Shown here one piece after another: positions 9,917-61,985 of a DNA stretch of 64,000 bases. Under the pieces are notes generated by a model. It did not search any database. It was not told the DNA's origin and saw nothing but the letters and a program-made list of their open reading frames with translations. The position numbers and the translations under genes are program-made. This DNA comes from Streptomyces phaeolivaceus (GTDB taxonomy: Bacteria; Actinomycetota; Actinomycetes; Streptomycetales; Streptomycetaceae), in contig NZ_CP045096.1 of NCBI RefSeq assembly GCF_009184865.1, positions 372,001 to 436,000 on the forward strand, in the 5' to 3' direction. The first letter of the stretch is position 1; each line of letters opens with the position of its first letter.

Positions 9917-10000
9917 TCAGGCCGCGGCGCGACAGGAGGCGCTGGAGACGCGCGCGAGGTCGACATGGCGTCGTCGCGTGAGGTCCAGTCGCATCTTCAT
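9917..10000 (-). CDS. Cys-containing leader peptide of the sulfur operon (27 aa)
   Basis: A short gene with ATG at 10000-9998, CGAGGAC as ribosome site and TGA at 9919-9917. Its core LTRRRHVDLARVSSASC matches the family of actinobacterial leader peptides (R-R-H-V/I-D-L-x-R-x-x-S/G-A-x-C) found before sulfur and cysteine genes. Ribosome stalling at the late Cys codon when charged tRNA-Cys is short is thought to relieve attenuation of the downstream genes. The peptide lies 133 bp before sfnG. I see no classic terminator with a T-run in between, so attenuation could be Rho-based or translational. The function is inferred from the family and position. Confidence 0.8.
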   Translation of the reverse strand: MKMRLDLTRRRHVDLARVSSASCRAAA

Positions 10001-10137
10001 GTCCTCGATCGTGACAGCCGTCGCCGACGACCGTCAAGGAGAACCCGACCGGTCTCGTATCGCGGACCATTGAATTTCACGAAGGTGTGACAGGGAAACC
10101 CTTGAACGGCCCGGAAATCGCCACACATTCTGCTGTC

Positions 10138-11055
10138 GTGCGAACGGAACAGCTGGAATACATCACGGCGGTGACCAGGCTCGGTTCGCTGCGCCGGGCG
10201 GCCGACGAACTACGGCTCTCGCAGCCCGCGTTGAGCGAGACCGTACGGAATCTGGAACGCGAGCTGGGGGTCGATCTGCTGGAGCGCAAGCGGTCCGGCG
10301 CGACGATGAGCGCCTCGGGCCGGGAGTTGCTGCCGCACATCATCGGGGTGCTGGACGCGGTGGACCGGCTGCGGGCCGCGGCGGGCGAGCAGCACCGCAT
10401 CAGCCGGATGGTCCGGCTCGGCACGGTCAACGCGGCGACCGTGCCGCTGCTCATCCCGGTGATCCGGGATTTCCGTGCCGATCACCCCCTCACCCAGGTC
10501 GAGGTGGTCGGCGCCCAGCAGACCGACATCCACCGGGGTCTGCTGGAGGGCTCCTTCGACCTCGGGCTCGTCAACCATCTCGACGGTGACGACGTGCCCG
10601 CCGAGTTCGAGGCGACGGAGCTGCTGCGGGGCCGGCCGGTGGTGGTGCTCCGCCCGGACAGTCCACTGGCGTCCCGGGCGGCGGTGTCCGTGGACGATCT
10701 GCTCGACGTGCCGCTGATCGGCATGCGCTCGGGGTACGTCATGCACCGCTACGTCCACCGGCTCCTCGACGGGCGCGACCCGGCGTTCGCGTACTCCACG
10801 GACGGGGCCGAGATGGGCAAGCTGCTGGTGGCGGAGGGGCTCGGGGCGACGGTCCTGCCGGACTTCAGCGTGGTCGGCGACCCGCTGGAGCGGCGGGGCG
10901 CCCTGGTCCACCGGCCGATCGCCGGTGACACCACCCGGGTGCTGCTGATGCTCCAGCGCCGCAGGGCTGATTCGGTACCGCAGGCCGCCCGCGATCTGCA
11001 CGAGGCGTTCGTGGCGACGGCACGCGCCCTGACCGGCGGACTCCCCCACGGATGA
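10138..11055 (+). CDS. LysR-family transcriptional regulator
   Basis: LysR regulator of 305 residues, divergent from the sulfur operon and probably its controller. The N-terminal winged HTH (about 1-60) reads QLEYITAVTRLGSLRRAADELRLSQPALSETVRNLERELG; the effector-binding domain follows, with VRLGTVNAATVPLLIPVIRDF and LLVAEGLGATVLPDFSVVGDP. The GTG at 10138 is chosen because LysR proteins begin just before the HTH; it has no ribosome site, so the message may be leaderless. An alternative GTG at 10087 would add 17 residues. An effector such as sulfate, APS or O-acetylserine would fit a CysB-like role but cannot be read from sequence. Confidence 0.85.
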   Translation: MRTEQLEYITAVTRLGSLRRAADELRLSQPALSETVRNLERELGVDLLERKRSGATMSASGRELLPHIIGVLDAVDRLRAAAGEQHRISRMVRLGTVNAATVPLLIPVIRDFRADHPLTQVEVVGAQQTDIHRGLLEGSFDLGLVNHLDGDDVPAEFEATELLRGRPVVVLRPDSPLASRAAVSVDDLLDVPLIGMRSGYVMHRYVHRLLDGRDPAFAYSTDGAEMGKLLVAEGLGATVLPDFSVVGDPLERRGALVHRPIAGDTTRVLLMLQRRRADSVPQAARDLHEAFVATARALTGGLPHG

Positions 11056-53547: not shown

Positions 53548-53815
53548 CGGGTGACCACGGCCGGTGCGGGACCCGGTCTGCCGTACAACGCGTGGGCGTA
53601 CGGCGGCGGGGAAGGCGTGTCACAGGGCCTGGGGCACCCGCGGCACCGGCCACCAGATCGCCGAGGGCGACTGGGAAGTGCGCCGGAGCGTGGTGTTCCA
53701 CGGCCACCGCTGGTACGGCACCGGTTGCCGGACCGAGGCCGAGGACCCTGACGGCGGCGGGAAGACGGACGACCACGTCTGCCTGGCCGACGGGCCTGAT
53801 CAGGAGCCACCGCGA
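53548..53815 (+). other. possible frameshifted remnant in a 579-bp gap
   Basis: The stretch 53353-53931 has no sound gene. Within it a plus-strand frame reads GAGPGLPYNAWAYGGGEGVS to about 53620; another frame continues from about 53627 with GTGHQIAEGDWEVRRSVVFH and RWYGTGCRTEAEDP to 53815, with about 90% G/C third positions. The two may be halves of one broken gene. No start, ribosome site or family is recognised. Confidence 0.25.
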
Positions 53816-53931
53816 CGCCACGGGGCCCGCCGGCGGCCGGCCCCGGCCGCTTGGAGCAGCGCCTCCCCCTCCCGCCGCACAGTGTCAGGGAGTCCCACGG
53901 TGTCAGGGAGCCGAGGACCCTCGGCCGCCCG

Positions 53932-54891
53932 TCACACCTCGGCCGGCGTCCCGTCCGTCGACTCGCCGGAGGCGCCCCCATGGGCCGGAGCGGGTACCGA
54001 CCGCGGAGTCAGCAGCACCGATCGGCGGCCGTCGACACCGACGGGCACATCGCCGTCGATGGTGATCCGCCGCAGGACGCGCGGGTGTTCGTCGGAGTCG
54101 TCGACGCCGTAGTGCTGGGTGGCTCGGTTGTCCCAGATGGCGACGTCCCCGGTCCGCCACTGCCAGCGCACGGTGTTCTCCGGACGTTCGATGTGCGACT
54201 GCAGGATTCCGACGACGGCCTGCGAGTCCCGCGCGCCGAGGCCGCTGAGCCGCTGTACGAAGTTGCCGAGCACCAGCGTGCGTTCGCCTGTCTCGGGATG
54301 GACCCGCACCACCGGGTGTTCGGTCCGGAAGGTGACCGCCGCGAACACCGCGGCCTGCCGCTCGACGTCCCGCTCGGTCAGTTCGGGGCGCACGGCCGCG
54401 TAGTCGAAGTTGTTGGTGTGCACCCCGCGCAGGTTGTCGGCCAGGATGCGCAGCGGCTCGGGGAGTCCGGCGTACGCGGTGGCGGTGTTGGCCCACAGGG
54501 TGTTGCCGCCGTAGGGCGGGATCACCTCCGCGCGCAGGATGGAGAAGGCGGGGTAGGCGGGCACGAAGGTGACGTCCGTGTGCCACTGGTTGGCCCGGCC
54601 GCCGTGCTCCTTGTCGATGCTGAGGGTGTACCGGCCGTCCGCGGACGGAACGGTGGGGTGCGCGACGGGCTCGCCGAGGAGCCGGCCGAACTCCTCGTGG
54701 CTCTCGGGGTCGAGGTGCTGCTGATCGCGGAAGAAGACGACCTTGTGCTCCAGGAGGGCGGAACGGATCGCGGCCACGGTGGCTTCGTCCAGGCCGCCGC
54801 CGAGGCGCACGCCGGAGATCACGGCACCGATGCGGCCACCGACCTTCTCGACGGTCGGAGCGGAGGTCGTGCGGGGGGCGACGGAAGTCAT
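53932..54891 (-). CDS. TauD/TfdA-family 2-oxoglutarate dioxygenase
   Basis: 319-residue Fe(II)/2-oxoglutarate oxygenase, full length. Iron ligands are His104 and Asp106 in NQWHTDVTF and His260 in [15 protein letters not shown] (about 271-277) supplies the 2-oxoglutarate Arg. The active-site neighbourhood ([31 protein letters not shown]) is that of taurine, alkylsulfatase or other sulfonate/sulfate ester oxygenases, which release sulfite or sulfate for growth. ATG 54891 has AAAGGGAA upstream. It is divergent from the ROK regulator; substrate not provable from sequence. Confidence 0.88.
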
Positions 54892-54934
54892 GGGTTCCCT
54901 TTCGACGGGAGGCGGTCGGCACGCGGCCCCGAGC

Positions 54935-54975
54935 GGCGCAATAATTACTGTCTGCTTGAAATTAAATAAACACAG
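54935..54975. promoter_or_regulatory. AT-rich divergent promoter of the tauD-like and ROK genes
   Basis: The segment AATAATTACTGTCTGCTTG followed by an A-rich tract up to about 54975 is strikingly A/T-rich for this genome and lies 44-84 bp upstream of the dioxygenase ATG. It is a probable promoter/operator; no specific consensus was recognised. Confidence 0.4.
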
Positions 54976-55172
54976 ATCAACCCGCTGTGGGTCTCAGGGC
55001 ATGGCAGAAGCTTCCGTACATGTACGACGGCCGGTCAAGAGATGCCGGCCTCACTTCACAATGCCGCAACATCCCCGGCGAGCCCGCCGGACCATCGCGG
55101 AGCAGGTCGCCAAACCAGCCTCCGGCACGGCATGTTGGTCTCCGTCAGCCCCGCCAACCAGGAGGAACAGCC

Positions 55173-56405
55173 ATGTCGACCACCCTGCCCGCCGGTGAAC
55201 GCGCCTCCGGCGACGACCGGCGGACAGCGAACGCCGCGGTCGTCCTGCGGGCCGTGCTCGATCACGGCCCTGTCGCCCGTAACGGCATCGCCCGGCTGTC
55301 GGGGCTCAGCGCGTCGGCCGTCTCCCGGCAGTGCACCGATCTGCTCCGCCTCGGACTCGTGCGCGAAGTTCCCGAACTCGTCACCGCGAGCGGGGTGGGC
55401 AGGCCCCAGATCCCTGTGGATCTCGCCACGGGCGACGCGGGCGGACCACTGGTGGCGGGGGTGCACATCGGAGTGCCGGGGGCCTCTCTCGGACTGACCG
55501 ATCTACGGGGTGACGTCGTGGCCAGCGCCTACCTCGACCACAGCGGGATGCGCTCCACCGAGCTGGCCGACCACGTGGGCCGGGAGCTGGCCCGCTTCAT
55601 CGACGACCACAGGCCCGCCGGCCGACGACTGCTCGCCGTCGGAGCCGCGGTCGGCGGCCGGGTGGACCCGGAGAGTGGAACGATCCTGCGGCACGACGCC
55701 CTCGGCTGGCACCAGCGCCCTCTGGCATTCGAGCTGAGCCGCCACACCGGTCTGCCGACCTGGATCGACAACCACGCACACGCGCTCGCGCGGTCCGAGC
55801 TGCTCTTCGGCCACCCCGCCTCCCGGAACTCCCTCGTGCAACTCCTGGTGGGCAACGTGGTGGACGCCGCCTTCGCCGTCGCCGGGGTGGTGCACAGCGG
55901 CCCCCGGTCCGGCGCGAGCGATGTGGCGCACTTTCCCGTGCCCGGCAGCGACGTGGCCTGCCCGTGCGGGAGCACCGGCTGTCTGGAGGCGACCGTCTCC
56001 GAAGCCCGGCTCGTCCGCCGCGCGGTGGCGGACGGGATCATCCCGGAGCCGTCGGTCCTGCGGCTGCTGGGCGTGGCGGCGGACGGCGACCAGCGGGCGG
56101 ACGCGCTCCTGCGGGAACGGGCACGTGCGGTGGGCCGGGTGGCGGGGCTGCTCCTGGACCTCCTCAACCCGGATCTGATCGTGCTCACGGAACTGTCGTC
56201 CCTGCTCCATCCCGCCTATCTGGGGGAGGTCCGGGAGGCGGCGATCGCCCAGTCACGCGCCTGCGACGACCCGGAACGCGTCGTCGTCCCTCGGGCAGGA
56301 AAGGCCGCTCTCCTCCTGGCGGCCTCCACGGTCGCCCTCGGCCCGTTGTTCAGGGATCCGCTGCGGACTCTCGGCCCTACGGCCGCGACAATCGCTCCCA
56401 CCTGA
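55173..56405 (+). CDS. ROK-family transcriptional regulator
   Basis: 410-residue NagC/XylR-type repressor. N-terminal winged HTH at about 18-75 (AVVLRAVLDHGPVARNGIARLSGLSASAVSRQCTDLL in parts), then the ROK sugar-kinase-like domain with VGAAVGGRVDPESG and the zinc motif CPCGSTGCLEA at about 265-275. Some ROK active-site features look weak, so it is likely a regulator without kinase activity. ATG 55173 has AGGAGG upstream. Position between a TauD-like oxygenase and a leader-controlled ABC transporter suggests it regulates one or both. Confidence 0.88.
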   Translation: MSTTLPAGERASGDDRRTANAAVVLRAVLDHGPVARNGIARLSGLSASAVSRQCTDLLRLGLVREVPELVTASGVGRPQIPVDLATGDAGGPLVAGVHIGVPGASLGLTDLRGDVVASAYLDHSGMRSTELADHVGRELARFIDDHRPAGRRLLAVGAAVGGRVDPESGTILRHDALGWHQRPLAFELSRHTGLPTWIDNHAHALARSELLFGHPASRNSLVQLLVGNVVDAAFAVAGVVHSGPRSGASDVAHFPVPGSDVACPCGSTGCLEATVSEARLVRRAVADGIIPEPSVLRLLGVAADGDQRADALLRERARAVGRVAGLLLDLLNPDLIVLTELSSLLHPAYLGEVREAAIAQSRACDDPERVVVPRAGKAALLLAASTVALGPLFRDPLRTLGPTAATIAPT

Positions 56406-56477
56406 CGGACCGTCCGGGGACCACCTGGTGGACACGGCTGTTGACCGGTCCGGGAGAGCCCTGCCATTCTGCTGCGC

Positions 56478-56561
56478 ATGAACCCGGACCTGCGACTCGT
56501 GTCTCGTCGGCACATCGACTTGTGCCGACTCGCCGGCGCGATCTGTGCCGTCGGCCGCTGA
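56478..56561 (+). CDS. Cys-containing leader peptide of the ABC transporter operon (27 aa)
   Basis: Short frame from ATG 56478 to TGA 56561 with core RLVSRRHIDLCRLAGAIC, a textbook member of the actinobacterial leader peptides found before sulfur-assimilation genes; it shares RRH-(V/I)-DL-x-R-(V/L)-x-(S/G)-A-x-C with the peptide at 9917-10000. The two Cys codons would be the sensing step of a cysteine-responsive attenuator. It lies 178 bp before the substrate-binding protein gene; a GGCCTCACTGGCC hairpin (about 56684-56696) and an A/T-rich stretch follow. Function is inferred from family and location. Confidence 0.82.
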   Translation: MNPDLRLVSRRHIDLCRLAGAICAVGR

Positions 56562-56739
56562 CACTCCGCTGATCCGTTCCGGACGCCGCTCTTCACGAGC
56601 GCTGTCGCGTCTCCACGCGCCGGGTTCCGCCTCCCGCTGACATCGCCGCGCGTCCGAACGCTGTCGCCCGCTTCCCCAGCTCTGGCCTCACTGGCCTTCT
56701 ATTAATTGCTGCTGCGTCGAAAAGAATGGTCACGCCTCC

Positions 56740-58338
56740 ATGTCCTCCTCCGCACCTCGCTCTTCCGGCCCCCTGTCCCGGCGCGCCGCTCTGCGCACGA
56801 TCGGCACCGGCGCCCTGCTGGTCGGCGCAGGCGGCGCGCTCACCGGCTGCCGTTCCGCCGTCTCCGCGAACAGCGACTCCGAAGCCAAAGCGTCCGGCGC
56901 ACCCCGGCGCGGAGGCACTCTCACGCTCGCCACCAGCCTGGACTTCACCCCCGCCTTCCTGTTCACCCAGACCGCGCTGTCCTCCCAGAACCGGCTCATC
57001 TACAACACCCTCATCAGGTACGACGACCGCCTCGAACCCCAGCCGGAGCTGGCGACCTCCTGGGAGTACGCCTCCGACGGCCGGAGCATCACGCTCAGGC
57101 TCCGGGACGACGTGACGTACCACGACGGCCGGGCGTTCACGGCGGACGACGTCATCTTCGCTGTCCAGAACCTCCAGAAACCGGAACGGTCGGCCCAGCT
57201 CGCGGCCACCGCGAGAGCCGTGACGGGCTTCGAGAAGCGCGGCGACCACGAACTGGTACTGAAGCTCGCCCATCCCGTCAGCAACCTCTTCGACCTCTTC
57301 GAGTTCATGATCATCGCCGACCGGCACACCGTCGCCGAGGCGCTGGAGGGGACGAAACTCAACGGAACAGGCCCCTTCAGGTTCGTCAGGTGGCAGCCCG
57401 GGACCGGTCTCTCCCTCGCCCGCAACGACCGCTACTGGATCGCGGACCGCCCTTACCTGGACAAGGTCGAGTTCCGCGTCTACACCCAGTCCGACGCCCT
57501 CCTGGCCGCACTCCGCTCCGGACAGGCCCAGTTGACGTACCAGGTGCCCGGCAGGTCCCTCGCGACCTTCAAGGACGACGGGAACTTCACGGTCAAGGAG
57601 TACGACACCGGTCTGGGCGCTCTGTACATCGGCGCCACCGTCACCGAATCCCCCACCGACAGCAAGCCGTTCCGGCAGGCCATCGCGTGGGCAGTCGACC
57701 GTGAACGCATCGTCGCCCGAGCTCTGGGCGGCTACGGCCTGCCCTCGGCCGCGCCCTGGCCCAAGTCGTCGCCGGCCTTCACCGAGGCCGACCGCACGCA
57801 CTACACCCACGACCCGGCCAAGGCCCGTGAACTGCTCAGGTCCTCCGGCTTCTCGACCAAGGAGACACTGCCGCTCGCCCATTCGACGATCGGGCTGCAC
57901 GTCGTCGTCGCCGAGATGGTGCAGTACGACCTCAAACAGATCGGCATCAGGACACAGCTTCAGCCGACCGAACCGGTGGCGTTCCAGAAGATGCTGATCA
58001 GCGGGAAGATGCCGGCGCTGTGGGTCAACACTCACGCCTTCGCCCAGGTACAGCCGGCGACCCTCGCCGTGAGCGCGCCCCCCTTCAACGAGGCGGCGAA
58101 CACCTCGCACTTCCGCTCGGCCGCGTACACCGAGGCGGTCCAGGCCGCCTGGCGCGCGCCGGCCGAGGGGCGCCAGGCACGCGCGCTGTACCGGAGAGTC
58201 TCCGACGTGCTGCTCGACGAGGCGTTCGTGATCGAACTGGCCGTCCAGAACTCGGTGCAGGTCACCTCCGCCAAGCTGCACGGGCCGACACTCAACAAGT
58301 TCAACTACCTCAACCTCGACAACGCCCACCTGGACTGA
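56740..58338 (+). CDS. ABC transporter substrate-binding lipoprotein (oligopeptide/nickel family)
   Basis: 532-residue solute-binding lipoprotein of the SBP_bac_5 (DppA/OppA) family. A twin-Arg SRRAALR and lipobox LTGC with Cys37 lead to RRGGTLTLATSLDFTPAF, NTLIRYDDRLEPQPELATSW, VTYHDGRAFTADDVIFAVQNL, GTGPFRFVRWQPGTGL and FRQAIAWAVDRERIV. It defines what the importer takes up; the leader peptide and TauD-like neighbour point to a sulfur-containing compound. ATG 56740 has only a weak ribosome site. First structural gene of a four-gene operon. Confidence 0.92.
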   Translation: MSSSAPRSSGPLSRRAALRTIGTGALLVGAGGALTGCRSAVSANSDSEAKASGAPRRGGTLTLATSLDFTPAFLFTQTALSSQNRLIYNTLIRYDDRLEPQPELATSWEYASDGRSITLRLRDDVTYHDGRAFTADDVIFAVQNLQKPERSAQLAATARAVTGFEKRGDHELVLKLAHPVSNLFDLFEFMIIADRHTVAEALEGTKLNGTGPFRFVRWQPGTGLSLARNDRYWIADRPYLDKVEFRVYTQSDALLAALRSGQAQLTYQVPGRSLATFKDDGNFTVKEYDTGLGALYIGATVTESPTDSKPFRQAIAWAVDRERIVARALGGYGLPSAAPWPKSSPAFTEADRTHYTHDPAKARELLRSSGFSTKETLPLAHSTIGLHVVVAEMVQYDLKQIGIRTQLQPTEPVAFQKMLISGKMPALWVNTHAFAQVQPATLAVSAPPFNEAANTSHFRSAAYTEAVQAAWRAPAEGRQARALYRRVSDVLLDEAFVIELAVQNSVQVTSAKLHGPTLNKFNYLNLDNAHLD

Positions 58339-58339
58339 C

Positions 58340-59284
58340 GTGCGCACCCACCTCCTCAGGAAGATCCCGTCCGCGCTGCTGGTCCTGCTGGTCGCCTCCG
58401 TCCTGATCTTCTCGATGCTGCGGCTCGTCCCGGGGGACGCGGCCGTGACGCTGGCCGGGCCGGACGCCTCCCCCGAGTCGGTCGAGGCGATCCGCCGTCA
58501 GCTCGGGCTCGACCAGCCCCTGCCGGCGCAGTACCTGACCTGGATCAGCGACCTGGGACGCGGCGACCTGGGCCCGTCGTACACCGTCGGCGGGCAGGTG
58601 GCCGACCTGATCTCGGACGGGCTCGGGGCCACTGTCGAACTGACCCTGGGCGCCCTGTTCTTCACGGTCGTCCTCGGTCTGCTGGTCGGCGTGTCCGGGG
58701 CCGCCTCCACCCGCCGGCCGGTCCAGGCGGCGGTGCGGGCCTTCACCACCGGCGCGCTCGTCGTTCCGCCCTTCGTCACCGGCGTGGTGCTGGTACTGGT
58801 CTTCGCCGTCGGTCTCGGCATCCTGCCGTCCGGCGGCCGGGTCGGCCTTCTCGAAGCACCCGACCTGGCACTTCAGTACCTGCTGCTGCCGGCCTTCTGC
58901 CTGGCTCTGCCGAGCGCGGCCGTGCTGGGCCGTTACCTCAAGGACGGTCTCGAACGCGCGCTTGCCGAGGACTGCGTCCGCACCGCCGCCGCGGCCGGCG
59001 TCTCCCCTCGGCGGCTGCTGTGGCGGCACGCCCTGCCCGGCGCCCTGCCGCCCGTGGTCACCCTGCTCGGCATGCAGACCGGTCAGCTCCTGGGCGGCGC
59101 GGTCCTGGTGGAGTCGATCTTCGCCTGGCCCGGCCTGGGACAACTGGCCGAACAGGCTCTGCTCAAGCGGGACTACCCCGTCGTGCAGGACCTGCTGCTG
59201 CTTCTCGTCACGGTCTTCGTCCTCGTCCAATTGCTCACAGACCTGCTCTACGTCCTGCTCGACCCGCGCGTCCGGTGGGAGTGA
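58340..59284 (+). CDS. ABC transporter permease (DppB-like)
   Basis: 314-residue inner-membrane permease with six helices: LLVASVLIFSMLRLVPGDAAV at the N-terminus, the periplasmic loop with IRRQLGLDQPLPAQYLTWI, and the EAA loop ALAEDCVRTAAAAGVSPRRLLWRHALPG that contacts the ATPase. GTG 58340 starts 1 bp after the preceding stop (TGACGTG), so coupled. Confidence 0.92.
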   Translation: MRTHLLRKIPSALLVLLVASVLIFSMLRLVPGDAAVTLAGPDASPESVEAIRRQLGLDQPLPAQYLTWISDLGRGDLGPSYTVGGQVADLISDGLGATVELTLGALFFTVVLGLLVGVSGAASTRRPVQAAVRAFTTGALVVPPFVTGVVLVLVFAVGLGILPSGGRVGLLEAPDLALQYLLLPAFCLALPSAAVLGRYLKDGLERALAEDCVRTAAAAGVSPRRLLWRHALPGALPPVVTLLGMQTGQLLGGAVLVESIFAWPGLGQLAEQALLKRDYPVVQDLLLLLVTVFVLVQLLTDLLYVLLDPRVRWE

Positions 59285-59286
59285 CC

Positions 59287-60147
59287 ATGAACACCACAGC
59301 CCTCCTCCCCCGTCGCGCGCGCACCGCGGGCCGTCGGCCCCCCTACCTCGCCGCACTGACGACCCTTCGCGGACGCCTCGGACTGCTCCTGGTCGGCCTG
59401 GTGGTGCTGGCCGGTCTGTTCGCCCCGCTCCTCACCTCGACCGGTCCGACCGACCAGAGCAGTGACCCGCTCCTCTCCCTGGGCAGCCCCGGCCACCCGC
59501 TCGGCACCGACGACCTGGGCCGCGACCTGCTCAGCCGAGTGCTGTACGGCATCCGGACGGATCTGGAGGTGATCGCCGTCGCCGTCCCGCTGGGCATACT
59601 GGCCGGCTGCGCGCTCGCGCTGTCGGCCGCCGTCCACCCGGTCGCGGACACCGTGGTGCAACGGGTCTTCGACCTTCTGCTGGCCTTCCCCGGCCTGATC
59701 CTGGCGCTCGCCGTCACCGCCGTCCTCGGCCCCGGGCGGCTGCCGGTGATCGTCGTCATCGCATTGGCCGAAATACCGGTGTTCGGGCGGCAGTTGCGGG
59801 CCGGAATCCTGATCCAGCGGGAACGCGAGTACGTTCTCGCCGCGCGCCTGGGCGGCGCCCGGAAGGCGCGTCTGCTGCTACGGCACATCCTGCCCAACTG
59901 CCTGGACCCCCTGGTGGTGCAGATCTCCGTCTCCCTCACCGTCGCCGTCTTCATCGAGGGCGCGATGAGTTTCCTGGGCGTCGGCGTGGCCCCGCCCGAA
60001 CCCACCCTCGGTGGTGTGCTCAACCAGGCGATGCCCTATCTGGCCCAGTCGCCGTCCCTGTCCGTCGGCCCCCTGCTCGCCATCCTGCTGCTCGTCCTCG
60101 GACTCTCGCTGCTGTCCGAGGCCCTCAACCGGGAGATCCGCCGATGA
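59287..60147 (+). CDS. ABC transporter permease (DppC-like)
   Basis: 286-residue permease: HPLGTDDLGRDLLSRVLYGIR near the N-terminus, six helices, and EAA loop REYVLAARLGGARKARLLLRHILPN; SFLGVGVAPPEPTLGG is the DppC-family signature. ATG 59287 is 2 bp after the DppB-like stop; a GTG at 59281 is an alternative. Its end overlaps the ATPase ATG (ATGA). Confidence 0.92.
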   Translation: MNTTALLPRRARTAGRRPPYLAALTTLRGRLGLLLVGLVVLAGLFAPLLTSTGPTDQSSDPLLSLGSPGHPLGTDDLGRDLLSRVLYGIRTDLEVIAVAVPLGILAGCALALSAAVHPVADTVVQRVFDLLLAFPGLILALAVTAVLGPGRLPVIVVIALAEIPVFGRQLRAGILIQREREYVLAARLGGARKARLLLRHILPNCLDPLVVQISVSLTVAVFIEGAMSFLGVGVAPPEPTLGGVLNQAMPYLAQSPSLSVGPLLAILLLVLGLSLLSEALNREIRR

Positions 60148-61985
60148 CTCTGCTCGACGTACGGCGCCTGAGCGTCGACTTCACCTCGCCGGACGGCCGG
60201 ACCGTGCACGCGGTACGGGACGTCAGCTTCTCGCTGGCGCGCGGCGAGACACTGGCCGTGGTCGGTGAGTCGGGCTCGGGAAAATCCACCACCGCGCTGG
60301 CGCTGACGCGGATGCTGCCCGCCACGGGCCGGATCACCGCCGGTTCGGTGCGGCTGGACGGCCTCGACCTGGCGTCCGCGAGCAAGGAGGAGCTGCGGGC
60401 CGTCCGGGGTGCCCGGGTCGGGATGGTCTTCCAGGATCCGATGACCTCGCTCAACCCGGTCCTGTCGATCCGCACCCACCTCGACGAGGTGCTCCGCGCG
60501 CACGGTCACGGCAACCGCGCCGCGCGCCGGGCCCGCGCCGCCGACCTCCTCGGCCTGGTCGGCATCCCGGACCCGCGCCGCAGACTCGACGACCACCCGC
60601 ACCAGTTCTCCGGCGGCCAGCGCCAGCGCGTCCTGATCGCCATGGCCCTCGCCAACGAGCCGGACGTCCTGCTGGCCGACGAACCCACCACGGCCCTCGA
60701 CGCGACCGTCCAGGACCAGATCCTGAACCTGCTCGGCAGGCTCAACGAGGAGACCGGCACCGCGCTGCTTCTGATCACCCACAACATCGGTGTGGTCGCC
60801 CGCTCCTGCGCACGGACCCTGGTCATGTACGGCGGAACGGTCGCCGAGCACGGCTCCACCGCCGACGTCCTGACTCGCCCCCGGCATCCCTACACCGCCG
60901 GCCTGCTGGCTTCCGTGCCCCGGCTGTCCGCTCCGTCCGGCACCCGGCTCACCGGCATTCCGGGTGCGCCGCCGGACCTGTCGCTTCCGGTCACCGGATG
61001 CGCCTTCGCACCACGGTGCGGATCGGCGGACGCGCGGTGCGGAAGCGAGGCGCCGCCGCTCAAGGCCGATGCGGCCTGCTGGCACGCGGGGGAACTGCCG
61101 CCGCTCCCATCGGCCGGCCCGGCCGGCCGAGCGCCCGTCCCGACGGGCACACCGGTCCTCGAAGCATCCGGTCTGCGCAAGGAGTTCCGGGGACGCCGCC
61201 GCAGCCGGCTGCTCGCCGTCGACGACGTCTCGCTGAGGGTCCATGCCGGGGAGACGCTGGGCGTCGTCGGGGAGTCGGGCTCCGGCAAGTCCACTCTGGC
61301 CCGTCTCCTCGTCCACGCGCATCCGGCCGACGGCGGAACCGTCCGGCTGGGTGGCGAGGACGTGACCCGGCCTTCGGCCGCCGTGCTGCGGGAGCTGCGA
61401 CGCCGGGTGCAGATGGTCTTCCAGGATCCGTACGCCTCTCTCAACCCCCGGATGACGGTGGGCGACATCATCGGCGAACCCCTCCTGGCACACGGGCTGT
61501 ACCCGGACCGTACGAGGCGCGCGAAACGGGTCGCCGAACTCCTGGAACTCGTCGGTCTGGACCCGGCGACAGCCGACCGGTTCCCGCGCGCCTTCTCCGG
61601 CGGCCAGCGCCAGCGCATCGGCATCGCCCGGGCGCTGGCCCCCGAGCCGTCGGTGCTGCTGTGCGACGAGCCGGTCTCGGCGCTGGACGTGTCGGTGCAG
61701 GCGCAGATCGTCAACCTGCTGGCCGACCTCCAGCGCGACCTGGGACTCGCGATGGTCTTCATCGCGCACGACCTGGCGGTCGTCCGGCAGGTCAGCCACC
61801 GGATCGCGGTCATGCACCGGGGCCGGATCGTCGAGACCGGCCCCTCGGACGAGGTCTGCGAGAAACCCCGGCACCCGTACACGGCCGCTCTGCTGGCGGC
61901 CGTTCCCGACCCGATGCCCGGCCCCCGCTCACGGCACGCCCTGCGGTTCGGGGGCGTGCGGAGCAGAGTCTCCACGCTCGAATGA
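60144..61985 (+). CDS. fused double ABC ATPase (DppD-DppF-like)
   Basis: 613-residue protein with two ATPase domains in one chain. Domain 1: Walker A GESGSGKST at 41-49, signature FSGGQRQRV, Walker B VLLADEPTTALD, and the DppD-type C-terminal Cys-rich cap (CAFAPRCGSADARCGSEAPP) at about 290-310. Domain 2: Walker A GESGSGKST at about 376-384, FSGGQRQRIGIARAL, VLLCDEPVSALDVSVQ, and HPYTAALLAAVPDP. It powers the importer. Most Dpp systems use two separate subunits. Coupled by ATGA to the permease. Confidence 0.93.
   Translation: MTLLDVRRLSVDFTSPDGRTVHAVRDVSFSLARGETLAVVGESGSGKSTTALALTRMLPATGRITAGSVRLDGLDLASASKEELRAVRGARVGMVFQDPMTSLNPVLSIRTHLDEVLRAHGHGNRAARRARAADLLGLVGIPDPRRRLDDHPHQFSGGQRQRVLIAMALANEPDVLLADEPTTALDATVQDQILNLLGRLNEETGTALLLITHNIGVVARSCARTLVMYGGTVAEHGSTADVLTRPRHPYTAGLLASVPRLSAPSGTRLTGIPGAPPDLSLPVTGCAFAPRCGSADARCGSEAPPLKADAACWHAGELPPLPSAGPAGRAPVPTGTPVLEASGLRKEFRGRRRSRLLAVDDVSLRVHAGETLGVVGESGSGKSTLARLLVHAHPADGGTVRLGGEDVTRPSAAVLRELRRRVQMVFQDPYASLNPRMTVGDIIGEPLLAHGLYPDRTRRAKRVAELLELVGLDPATADRFPRAFSGGQRQRIGIARALAPEPSVLLCDEPVSALDVSVQAQIVNLLADLQRDLGLAMVFIAHDLAVVRQVSHRIAVMHRGRIVETGPSDEVCEKPRHPYTAALLAAVPDPMPGPRSRHALRFGGVRSRVSTLE

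Follow-up and report, generated by a model that had tools for sequence, protein, structure and literature searches.

A short cysteine-containing open reading frame stands before an ABC transporter operon whose family names point to peptides or nickel, which raises the question of what the frame encodes and what it tells about the transporter. The window, i.e., the whole 64-kb stretch of DNA analysed, covers positions 372001-436000 of the 10.2-Mb genome of Streptomyces phaeolivaceus. From the sequence, we consider it likely that the frame is a Cys-responsive attenuator leader, which would make an operon for the uptake of organosulfates (most likely sulfate esters) respond to the sulfur state. 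A transporter that would be annotated as a dipeptide or nickel importer would thereby become a testable sulfate-ester importer of a major soil genus; organic forms make up more than 95% of the sulfur in soil (PMC4267179). The genes and leaders considered are as follows.

9917..10000 (-): the window's first Cys leader, ahead of the dimethylsulfone monooxygenase SfnG; its conserved codon is also UGU
53932..54891 (-): AtsK-like 2-oxoglutarate-dependent sulfate-ester dioxygenase of the TauD/TfdA family (PF02668; best PDB match AtsK 1oih)
55173..56405 (+): ROK-family transcription regulator (PF00480); start by a simple gene caller, the longest ORF starting at 54987
56478..56561 (+): Cys leader peptide ORF, member of NF042934 by profile match and conservation
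56740..58338 (+): substrate-binding protein (SBP) of the SBP_bac_5 family (PF00496)
58340..59284 (+): permease 1 of the DppB/OppB type, by family profiles
59287..60147 (+): permease 2 of the DppC/OppC type, by family profiles and gene caller
60144..61985 (+): fused ATPase pair of the DppD-DppF type, by family profiles

Identity and conservation of the leader

The leader reads MNPDLRLVSRRHIDLCRLAGAICAVGR in 27 codons and has Cys only at positions 16 and 23. Its presence, as described in an earlier sequence-only reading, was confirmed, and so was its position before an oligopeptide-type ABC transporter, with the SBP_bac_5, two-permease and fused-ATPase operon directly downstream. In a profile search it scored 40.1 bits, against a cut-off of 27, for the NCBIfam family NF042934 ('putative leader peptide'), over positions 1-19 of the 19-residue profile. 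The leader at 9.9 kb scores 32.0 bits against the same cut-off, and the SfnG behind it 630.8 bits (cut-off 383). The same reading had called the two leaders nearly the same in design, which holds for the shared core RRH[VI]DLxR-N5-C and fails for the Cys of 'DLC', absent from the 9.9-kb copy. A pattern of the family core found exactly these two places in the window, compared to two matches in total over 200 simulated 64-kb order-3 Markov windows (about 0.01 per window). Despite the small size of the leader, the idea of a chance ORF thus deserves practically no weight against the curated family match, the rarity of chance matches and above all the conservation, which by itself had already ruled it out.

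The family is already known, and the present ORF is an additional member with a new target. It shares with NF042934 (class cis_reg_atten) a score above the curated cut-off and the core of 19 residues that closes with the conserved Cys; NF042934 is a sequence family only, to which we add the SBP_bac_5 transporter with AtsK and ROK neighbours as a target. The further additions are a probable function of the transporter, a Rho-type reading and a rule on the UGU codon. Similar to the mycobacterial polycysteine leaderless attenuators Ms5788A (NF042933) and Ms4527A (NF042936), it is short, contains Cys and, with a leaderless start predicted here, precedes sulfur genes. It differs from them in having two separated Cys instead of a contiguous run, and scores only 24.0 and 18.3 bits, respectively, under their 45-bit cut-offs. 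The Cys leaders of M. smegmatis are reported to be cysteine-responsive attenuators (Canestrari 2020, as cited by others). The leaders of actinobacterial cys operons described by Seliverstov et al. 2005 (PMC1262725) likewise have Cys codons near the stop and no terminator, but these have consecutive Cys and stand before cys or cbs genes rather than before a transporter of the SBP_bac_5 type.

Orthologs of the SBP at 1e-100 or better were found in 23 of 199 same-genus genomes, and two more draws with different cut-offs found them in 32 of 392 and 15 of 293 genomes; the sets overlap. Pooling yielded 39 distinct close loci (identity of at least 60%, our own included) and three distant ones (39-41%). 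The leader lies upstream of the SBP in 39/39 close and 0/3 distant loci, so the conservation in orthologous loci that the sequence-only reading had proposed as its check was observed throughout the close orthologs. Moreover, the peptide is under purifying selection, with a pN/pS of 0.45 (mean pN 0.077, pS 0.172) over 33 distinct sequences, counted from the 35 of 38 leaders that are 84 nt long. One distant locus (L086 of G186, SBP identity 39%) has a sulfatase and, by eye, a LacI-looking regulator, and lacks the Cys leader, which may mean carbon rather than sulfur control.

A separate search with the AtsK-like neighbour as query gave at least 80 named loci, among those listed 32 of Streptomyces or Streptacidiphilus (L195-L226). 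All 13 of these 32 with a close SBP have the leader (nine new, four counted before). Among the 19 without a close SBP, it is kept in one (L207) and absent on that strand in 18, three of which (L198, L210 and L218) end at a contig edge. L207 keeps the leader, an ATPase match and the sulfatase, and its SBP was not found. In this locus, from Streptomyces sulfonofaciens, the ROK gene and the first permease were not found either; perhaps a deletion left the leader beside the remaining genes. Another member of the leader family lies 130-400 bp before the AtsK-like gene itself in three Streptomyces loci devoid of the transporter (L196, L197 and L222); this again ties the AtsK-type gene set to sulfur. 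In the rest of the loci listed, the transporter occurs only in three from Kitasatospora (L241-L243), whose operons have the same gene set and no leader by the pattern used. There the AtsK, ROK, SBP, permease, ATPase and sulfatase genes all run in the same direction.

Neighbours and likely substrate of the transporter

Neighbours were counted in the 37 of 39 close loci with long flanks (G102 and G116 left out), using a simple codon-position gene caller. The AtsK-like gene, divergently oriented, is present in 35/37 and the ROK gene in 36/37, followed by the leader, SBP, permeases and fused ATPase. A sulfatase was found in at least 32 of the 37, a lower bound due to the limited flanks, and a formylglycine-generating enzyme (FGE) in 24. 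As the AtsK-like gene, sulfatases and FGE adjoin the operon in most close loci, the transporter is most likely, judged from gene content, an importer of organosulfates, specifically of sulfate esters. Together with the conservation of the leader, these sulfate-ester enzymes support the earlier assignment of the transporter to the sulfur response.

Sequence comparison against PDB entries ranked AtsK first for the TauD-family neighbour (372 bits), followed by 3swt (337), 3r1j (330) and Rv3406 (328); 3swt and 3r1j are mycobacterial-type structures named taurine dioxygenases by their depositors. It scores 171 bits against the taurine dioxygenase 1gqw and 223.4 against the NCBIfam taurine dioxygenase family, under the cut-off of 313. 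The likeness to the sulfate-ester dioxygenases AtsK and Rv3406 is one of sequence match only; Rv3406 has been reported to be a type II alkyl sulfatase that can scavenge sulfate (PMC3675115).

The transporter subunits themselves are less telling. The SBP reached none of the equivalog cut-offs (DppA, NikA, GsiB and others), the best being 121.3 bits for Opp4A against a cut-off of 650 and the scores for DppA, NikA and GsiB likewise falling far short, and the permeases reached no curated cut-off. The fused ATPase exceeds those of PRK11308 (556.3 against 408), NikE (412.2 against 332.6) and NikD (386.6 against 318.7), scores that sum two ATPase domains, and family naming would make it a component of nickel or dipeptide import. 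The family names, which suggest peptides, nickel or glutathione, and the NikD, NikE and dipeptide cut-offs passed by the ATPase favor an importer of sulfur peptides or other organosulfur (cystine peptides, glutathione or sulfonates) instead of sulfate esters. So do the stretches without a sulfatase in this genome, G180, G021 and G002, with an LLM monooxygenase taking the place of the sulfatase in G180. Weighed against the AtsK-like gene in 35 and the sulfatase in 32 of the 37 close loci, this alternative appears unlikely.

G313 is the fifth locus without a sulfatase within the stretch; its stretch is short, and L205, on a contig of equal length, shows a sulfatase upstream. At the locus of this genome, neither sulfatase nor FGE was found in the stretch examined, and only the AtsK-like gene adjoins; genome-wide, three Sulfatase-family and four FGE-family matches exceed the cut-offs, none of them at the leader-transporter locus. 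The substrate of the present transporter may therefore differ from that of its relatives.

The KPN_01854/KPN_01858-type clusters (TIGR04028/TIGR04027) also have a family-5 SBP beside a monooxygenase, but the SBP here scores only 54.9 bits for TIGR04028 and its neighbours are ROK and AtsK instead. Dibenzothiophene-grown (sulfate-starved) cultures of Rhodococcus qingshengii IGTS8 showed an 18- to 33-fold increase of a ROK regulator, and a TauD-family dioxygenase and a choline sulfatase encoded beside its gene were unique to them (PMC8557817); this set is comparable to the present locus by gene families. A published statement of a family-5 sulfate-ester importer was not found in the literature searched.

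Probable leaderless start, RNA behind the leader and proposed mode of control

The sites around the leader that bear on its regulation are given below.

54940..54970 (no strand): weak second palindrome copy in the divergent AtsK-ROK gap, score 4.2 compared to 30.2 for the downstream copy
56441..56446 (+): -35 box TTGACC of the leader promoter
56465..56470 (+): -10 box CATTCT, with 7 nt between it and the leader start codon; leaderless transcript predicted
56506..56529 (+): 9-bp inverted repeat within the leader, not kept in the same form by the orthologs
56544..56546 (+): conserved regulatory Cys codon (Cys23), UGU in 84/84 family leaders matched and in 39/39 orthologs
56562..56739 (+): untranslated gap richer in C than G (skew 0.248), intrinsic terminator absent; candidate Rho-loading region
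56701..56727 (+): palindrome-like site between leader and SBP, candidate ROK operator (downstream copy)

The pattern TTGAC-N16..21-CA[CT]NNT, with a start codon 5-9 nt further on, is present in 38/39 close orthologs, and the 39th (L105) has TTGACC and CAATCT boxes by eye. A generic sigma-70 scan found no site. In S. lividans, the mean distance from the -10 box to the transcription start is 6.3 nt (PMC8079986). Since the conserved promoter ends 5-9 nt before the start codon, the leader message is probably leaderless and read from its first base. In addition, beside the SfnG leader, a LysR-type gene (10087-11055, +; Pfam HTH_1 and LysR_substrate) has a GTG start a few nt past a CATTCT box; this geometry is that of the leader promoter at 56.4 kb, so the gene may also be leaderless.

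The RNA behind the leader is strongly enriched in C over G. Over the leader-SBP gap, which was measured to the start of the SBP match and may take in a few SBP codons, (C-G)/(C+G) averages 0.255 in 38 orthologs (0.169-0.339), values that are not independent owing to the relatedness of the loci. Control gaps gave 0.03 (SD 0.12, n=88) and 0.04 (SD 0.12, n=149), and 4.5% of the 88, a set that includes some leader gaps, reach the skew of this locus. The skew is positive behind 17/17 leaders of this genome. Class-wide, it is positive over the 100 nt past the leader in 81/84 cases (mean 0.213), compared to 0.009 over the 130 nt upstream (n=83). The gap sequence is not conserved, save the palindrome and, in many loci, a block before the SBP start. 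Rho was proposed for actinobacterial and mycobacterial cys leaders without terminators (Seliverstov 2005, PMC1262725), and the C-rich RNA here suggests Rho-dependent attenuation past the leader. The skew is not Rho-specific, and composition alone is no proof.

We propose that transcription would start at the leader start codon and that ribosomes would read the leaderless message. When Cys-tRNA is ample, the peptide would be finished and the ribosome would leave, exposing the C-rich RNA past the stop to Rho, so that transcription would end before the transporter genes. When Cys-tRNA is scarce, the ribosome would stall at the conserved UGU, four codons before the stop, Rho would be excluded and the operon made. 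As a second layer, ROK bound to the palindrome between the leader and the first gene would probably restrict expression to the presence of substrate. The imported sulfate esters would then be cut by the AtsK-like dioxygenase here, or by sulfatases in most relatives, releasing the sulfur.

The palindrome is of the type ATTnnTTCC...GGAAnnAAT. Its best match has 15-21 of 22 consensus letters in 38/38 ortholog gaps and at least 16 in 37 of them, whereas 0 of 1900 shuffled gaps reach 16. The next best non-overlapping copy lies in the AtsK-ROK gap in 12/12 orthologs scanned. From this arrangement, the leader-SBP palindrome is probably the ROK operator, and its presence in both gaps agrees with autoregulation. 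By eye, no second conserved promoter was seen between operator and SBP in the aligned orthologs; a roadblock is therefore possible.

Three other modes of control have to be weighed against the Rho-type reading. The palindromes in both gaps could also mean that the operon is really switched by the local ROK repressor, the leader being a vestige or a minor modulator; the peptide, promoter and UGU kept in 39/39 orthologs, under purifying selection, make this improbable. Classical attenuation by an intrinsic terminator/antiterminator pair is described, with such hairpins, for some Streptomyces leaders (trpL1 and leuL2; PMC8079986). Here it is very improbable, given no terminator-like site found in 56380-56760, no Rfam match in 53800-57000 and an unconserved gap. 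Translation attenuation would mean that the leader governs how open the ribosome-binding site of the SBP gene is, instead of acting on Rho; a 2026 paper gives this mode for the Cys leaders of M. smegmatis, and it keeps an appreciable though minor share of our expectation. By eye, 21 aligned orthologs showed no conserved pairing between the leader and the SBP start, and the gaps vary in length and sequence. The alifold energy of the 33 distinct 84-nt ortholog leaders is lower than in 97/100 column shuffles, yet the covariation term is near zero (0.33), and the low energy may thus come from the conserved coding sequence. For the present copy, the fold of the entire leader region is unremarkable (z -0.99; 29/200 shuffles as good).

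The UGU codon and other leaders of the family

The conserved Cys is encoded by UGU in 16/16 leaders of this genome that have one and in 68/68 class-wide leaders matched; 82 of these 84 are distinct over 54 nt. One of the 17 leaders studied in this genome (C2:8991391) lacks the conserved Cys and hence stands outside the 84, and the class-wide set was drawn from the top-scoring places rather than at random; it comprises 69, of which 68 matched the pattern (L193 did not). By comparison, the other Cys codons are UGC in 87/106 cases in the 68 class-wide leaders and in 8/9 in those of this genome, and UGU makes up 46/274 of the Cys codons in sampled genes of this genome and 42/624 in genes of the ortholog loci. 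Other conserved leader residues with degenerate codons show synonymous variation. UGU is followed by a pyrimidine in 81/84 leaders, but by G (UGUG) in 38/38 of this operon's orthologs.

Codon choice is reported to set the sensitivity of attenuators where isoacceptors differ (Elf and Ehrenberg 2005). The tRNA-Cys genes found in this genome, in two places, have the GCA anticodon only, and ARAGORN calls on 68 listed tRNA places (30 loci plus 38 in 33 stretches) gave no UGU-specific tRNA-Cys. Isoacceptor charging therefore fails to explain the fixed UGU, and the rule asks for wobble reading or a nucleotide-level signal. We tentatively suggest, as a possibility still short of an even chance, that NF042934 leaders are two-key arrest sensors, in which the RRHxDLxR nascent peptide and specifically the UGU codon, rather than cysteine as such, would together cause a pause that excludes Rho, a wobble or nucleotide signal being sensed. 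A synonymous swap of UGU to UGC should then break regulation. The rule bears on how actinobacteria sense cysteine without a terminator and with a single tRNA-Cys anticodon. It is not general to Cys leaders, since UGC dominates, with some UGU, in the alphaproteobacterial cysS leader (PMC8632094). No published statement of the rule, or of such leaders in Streptomyces, was found in the literature covered; Canestrari 2020 and D'Halluin 2023 could contain the rule. Starvation frameshifting at UGU was considered and rejected: frame 0 closes earlier than frames +1 and +2, which we take to be ordinary for G+C-rich DNA.

Across the whole genome, 27 NF042934 matches were listed at E<=10, of which 10 exceed the cut-off. 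The 17 studied leave out 10 at 15.8 bits or less and include seven under the cut-off. Of 118 genomes across the class, 89 carry a match at E<=0.001 and 78 one over the cut-off. The first genes behind the 17 leaders encode sulfite reductase, a ThiS/CysO-type protein (followed by a cysteine synthase over the cysKM cut-off), cysteine dioxygenase, a molybdopterin oxidoreductase, rhodanese, two ABC permeases, two LLM monooxygenases, two family-5 SBPs, a ROK regulator and SfnG. Less clearly sulfur-linked are a GST C-terminal protein, a DIOX_N protein, an alpha/beta hydrolase and a Peripla_BP_4 binding protein. The leader family could serve as a regulon marker by which genes with no other name are given a role in sulfur metabolism.

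The leader before cysteine dioxygenase (L058 4742-5281), VTDTSTRLWRRVHMDLVRYAGCVCRPSC, lies near 7896379-7896432, and near-identical peptides occur in L168, L171 and L172. As the enzyme consumes cysteine, this place misfits simple derepression by starvation.

A second family-5 SBP transporter with its own leader (179256-179309) was found at 173000-188000 of the genome (L059). Its operon ends with an LLM monooxygenase and is most like the KPN_01854/KPN_01858 clusters, with 355.5 bits for the SBP (TIGR04028, cut-off 468.5) and 98 for the LLM protein (cut-off 412.9). Nearby, an opposite-strand leader (178836-178886) precedes a sulfite-oxidase-like molybdopterin protein. At 8988500-9001000 (L056), three leader-like ORFs (8991391, 8992624 and 8996707) lie within 5.4 kb, two of them below the family cut-off and one without the conserved Cys.
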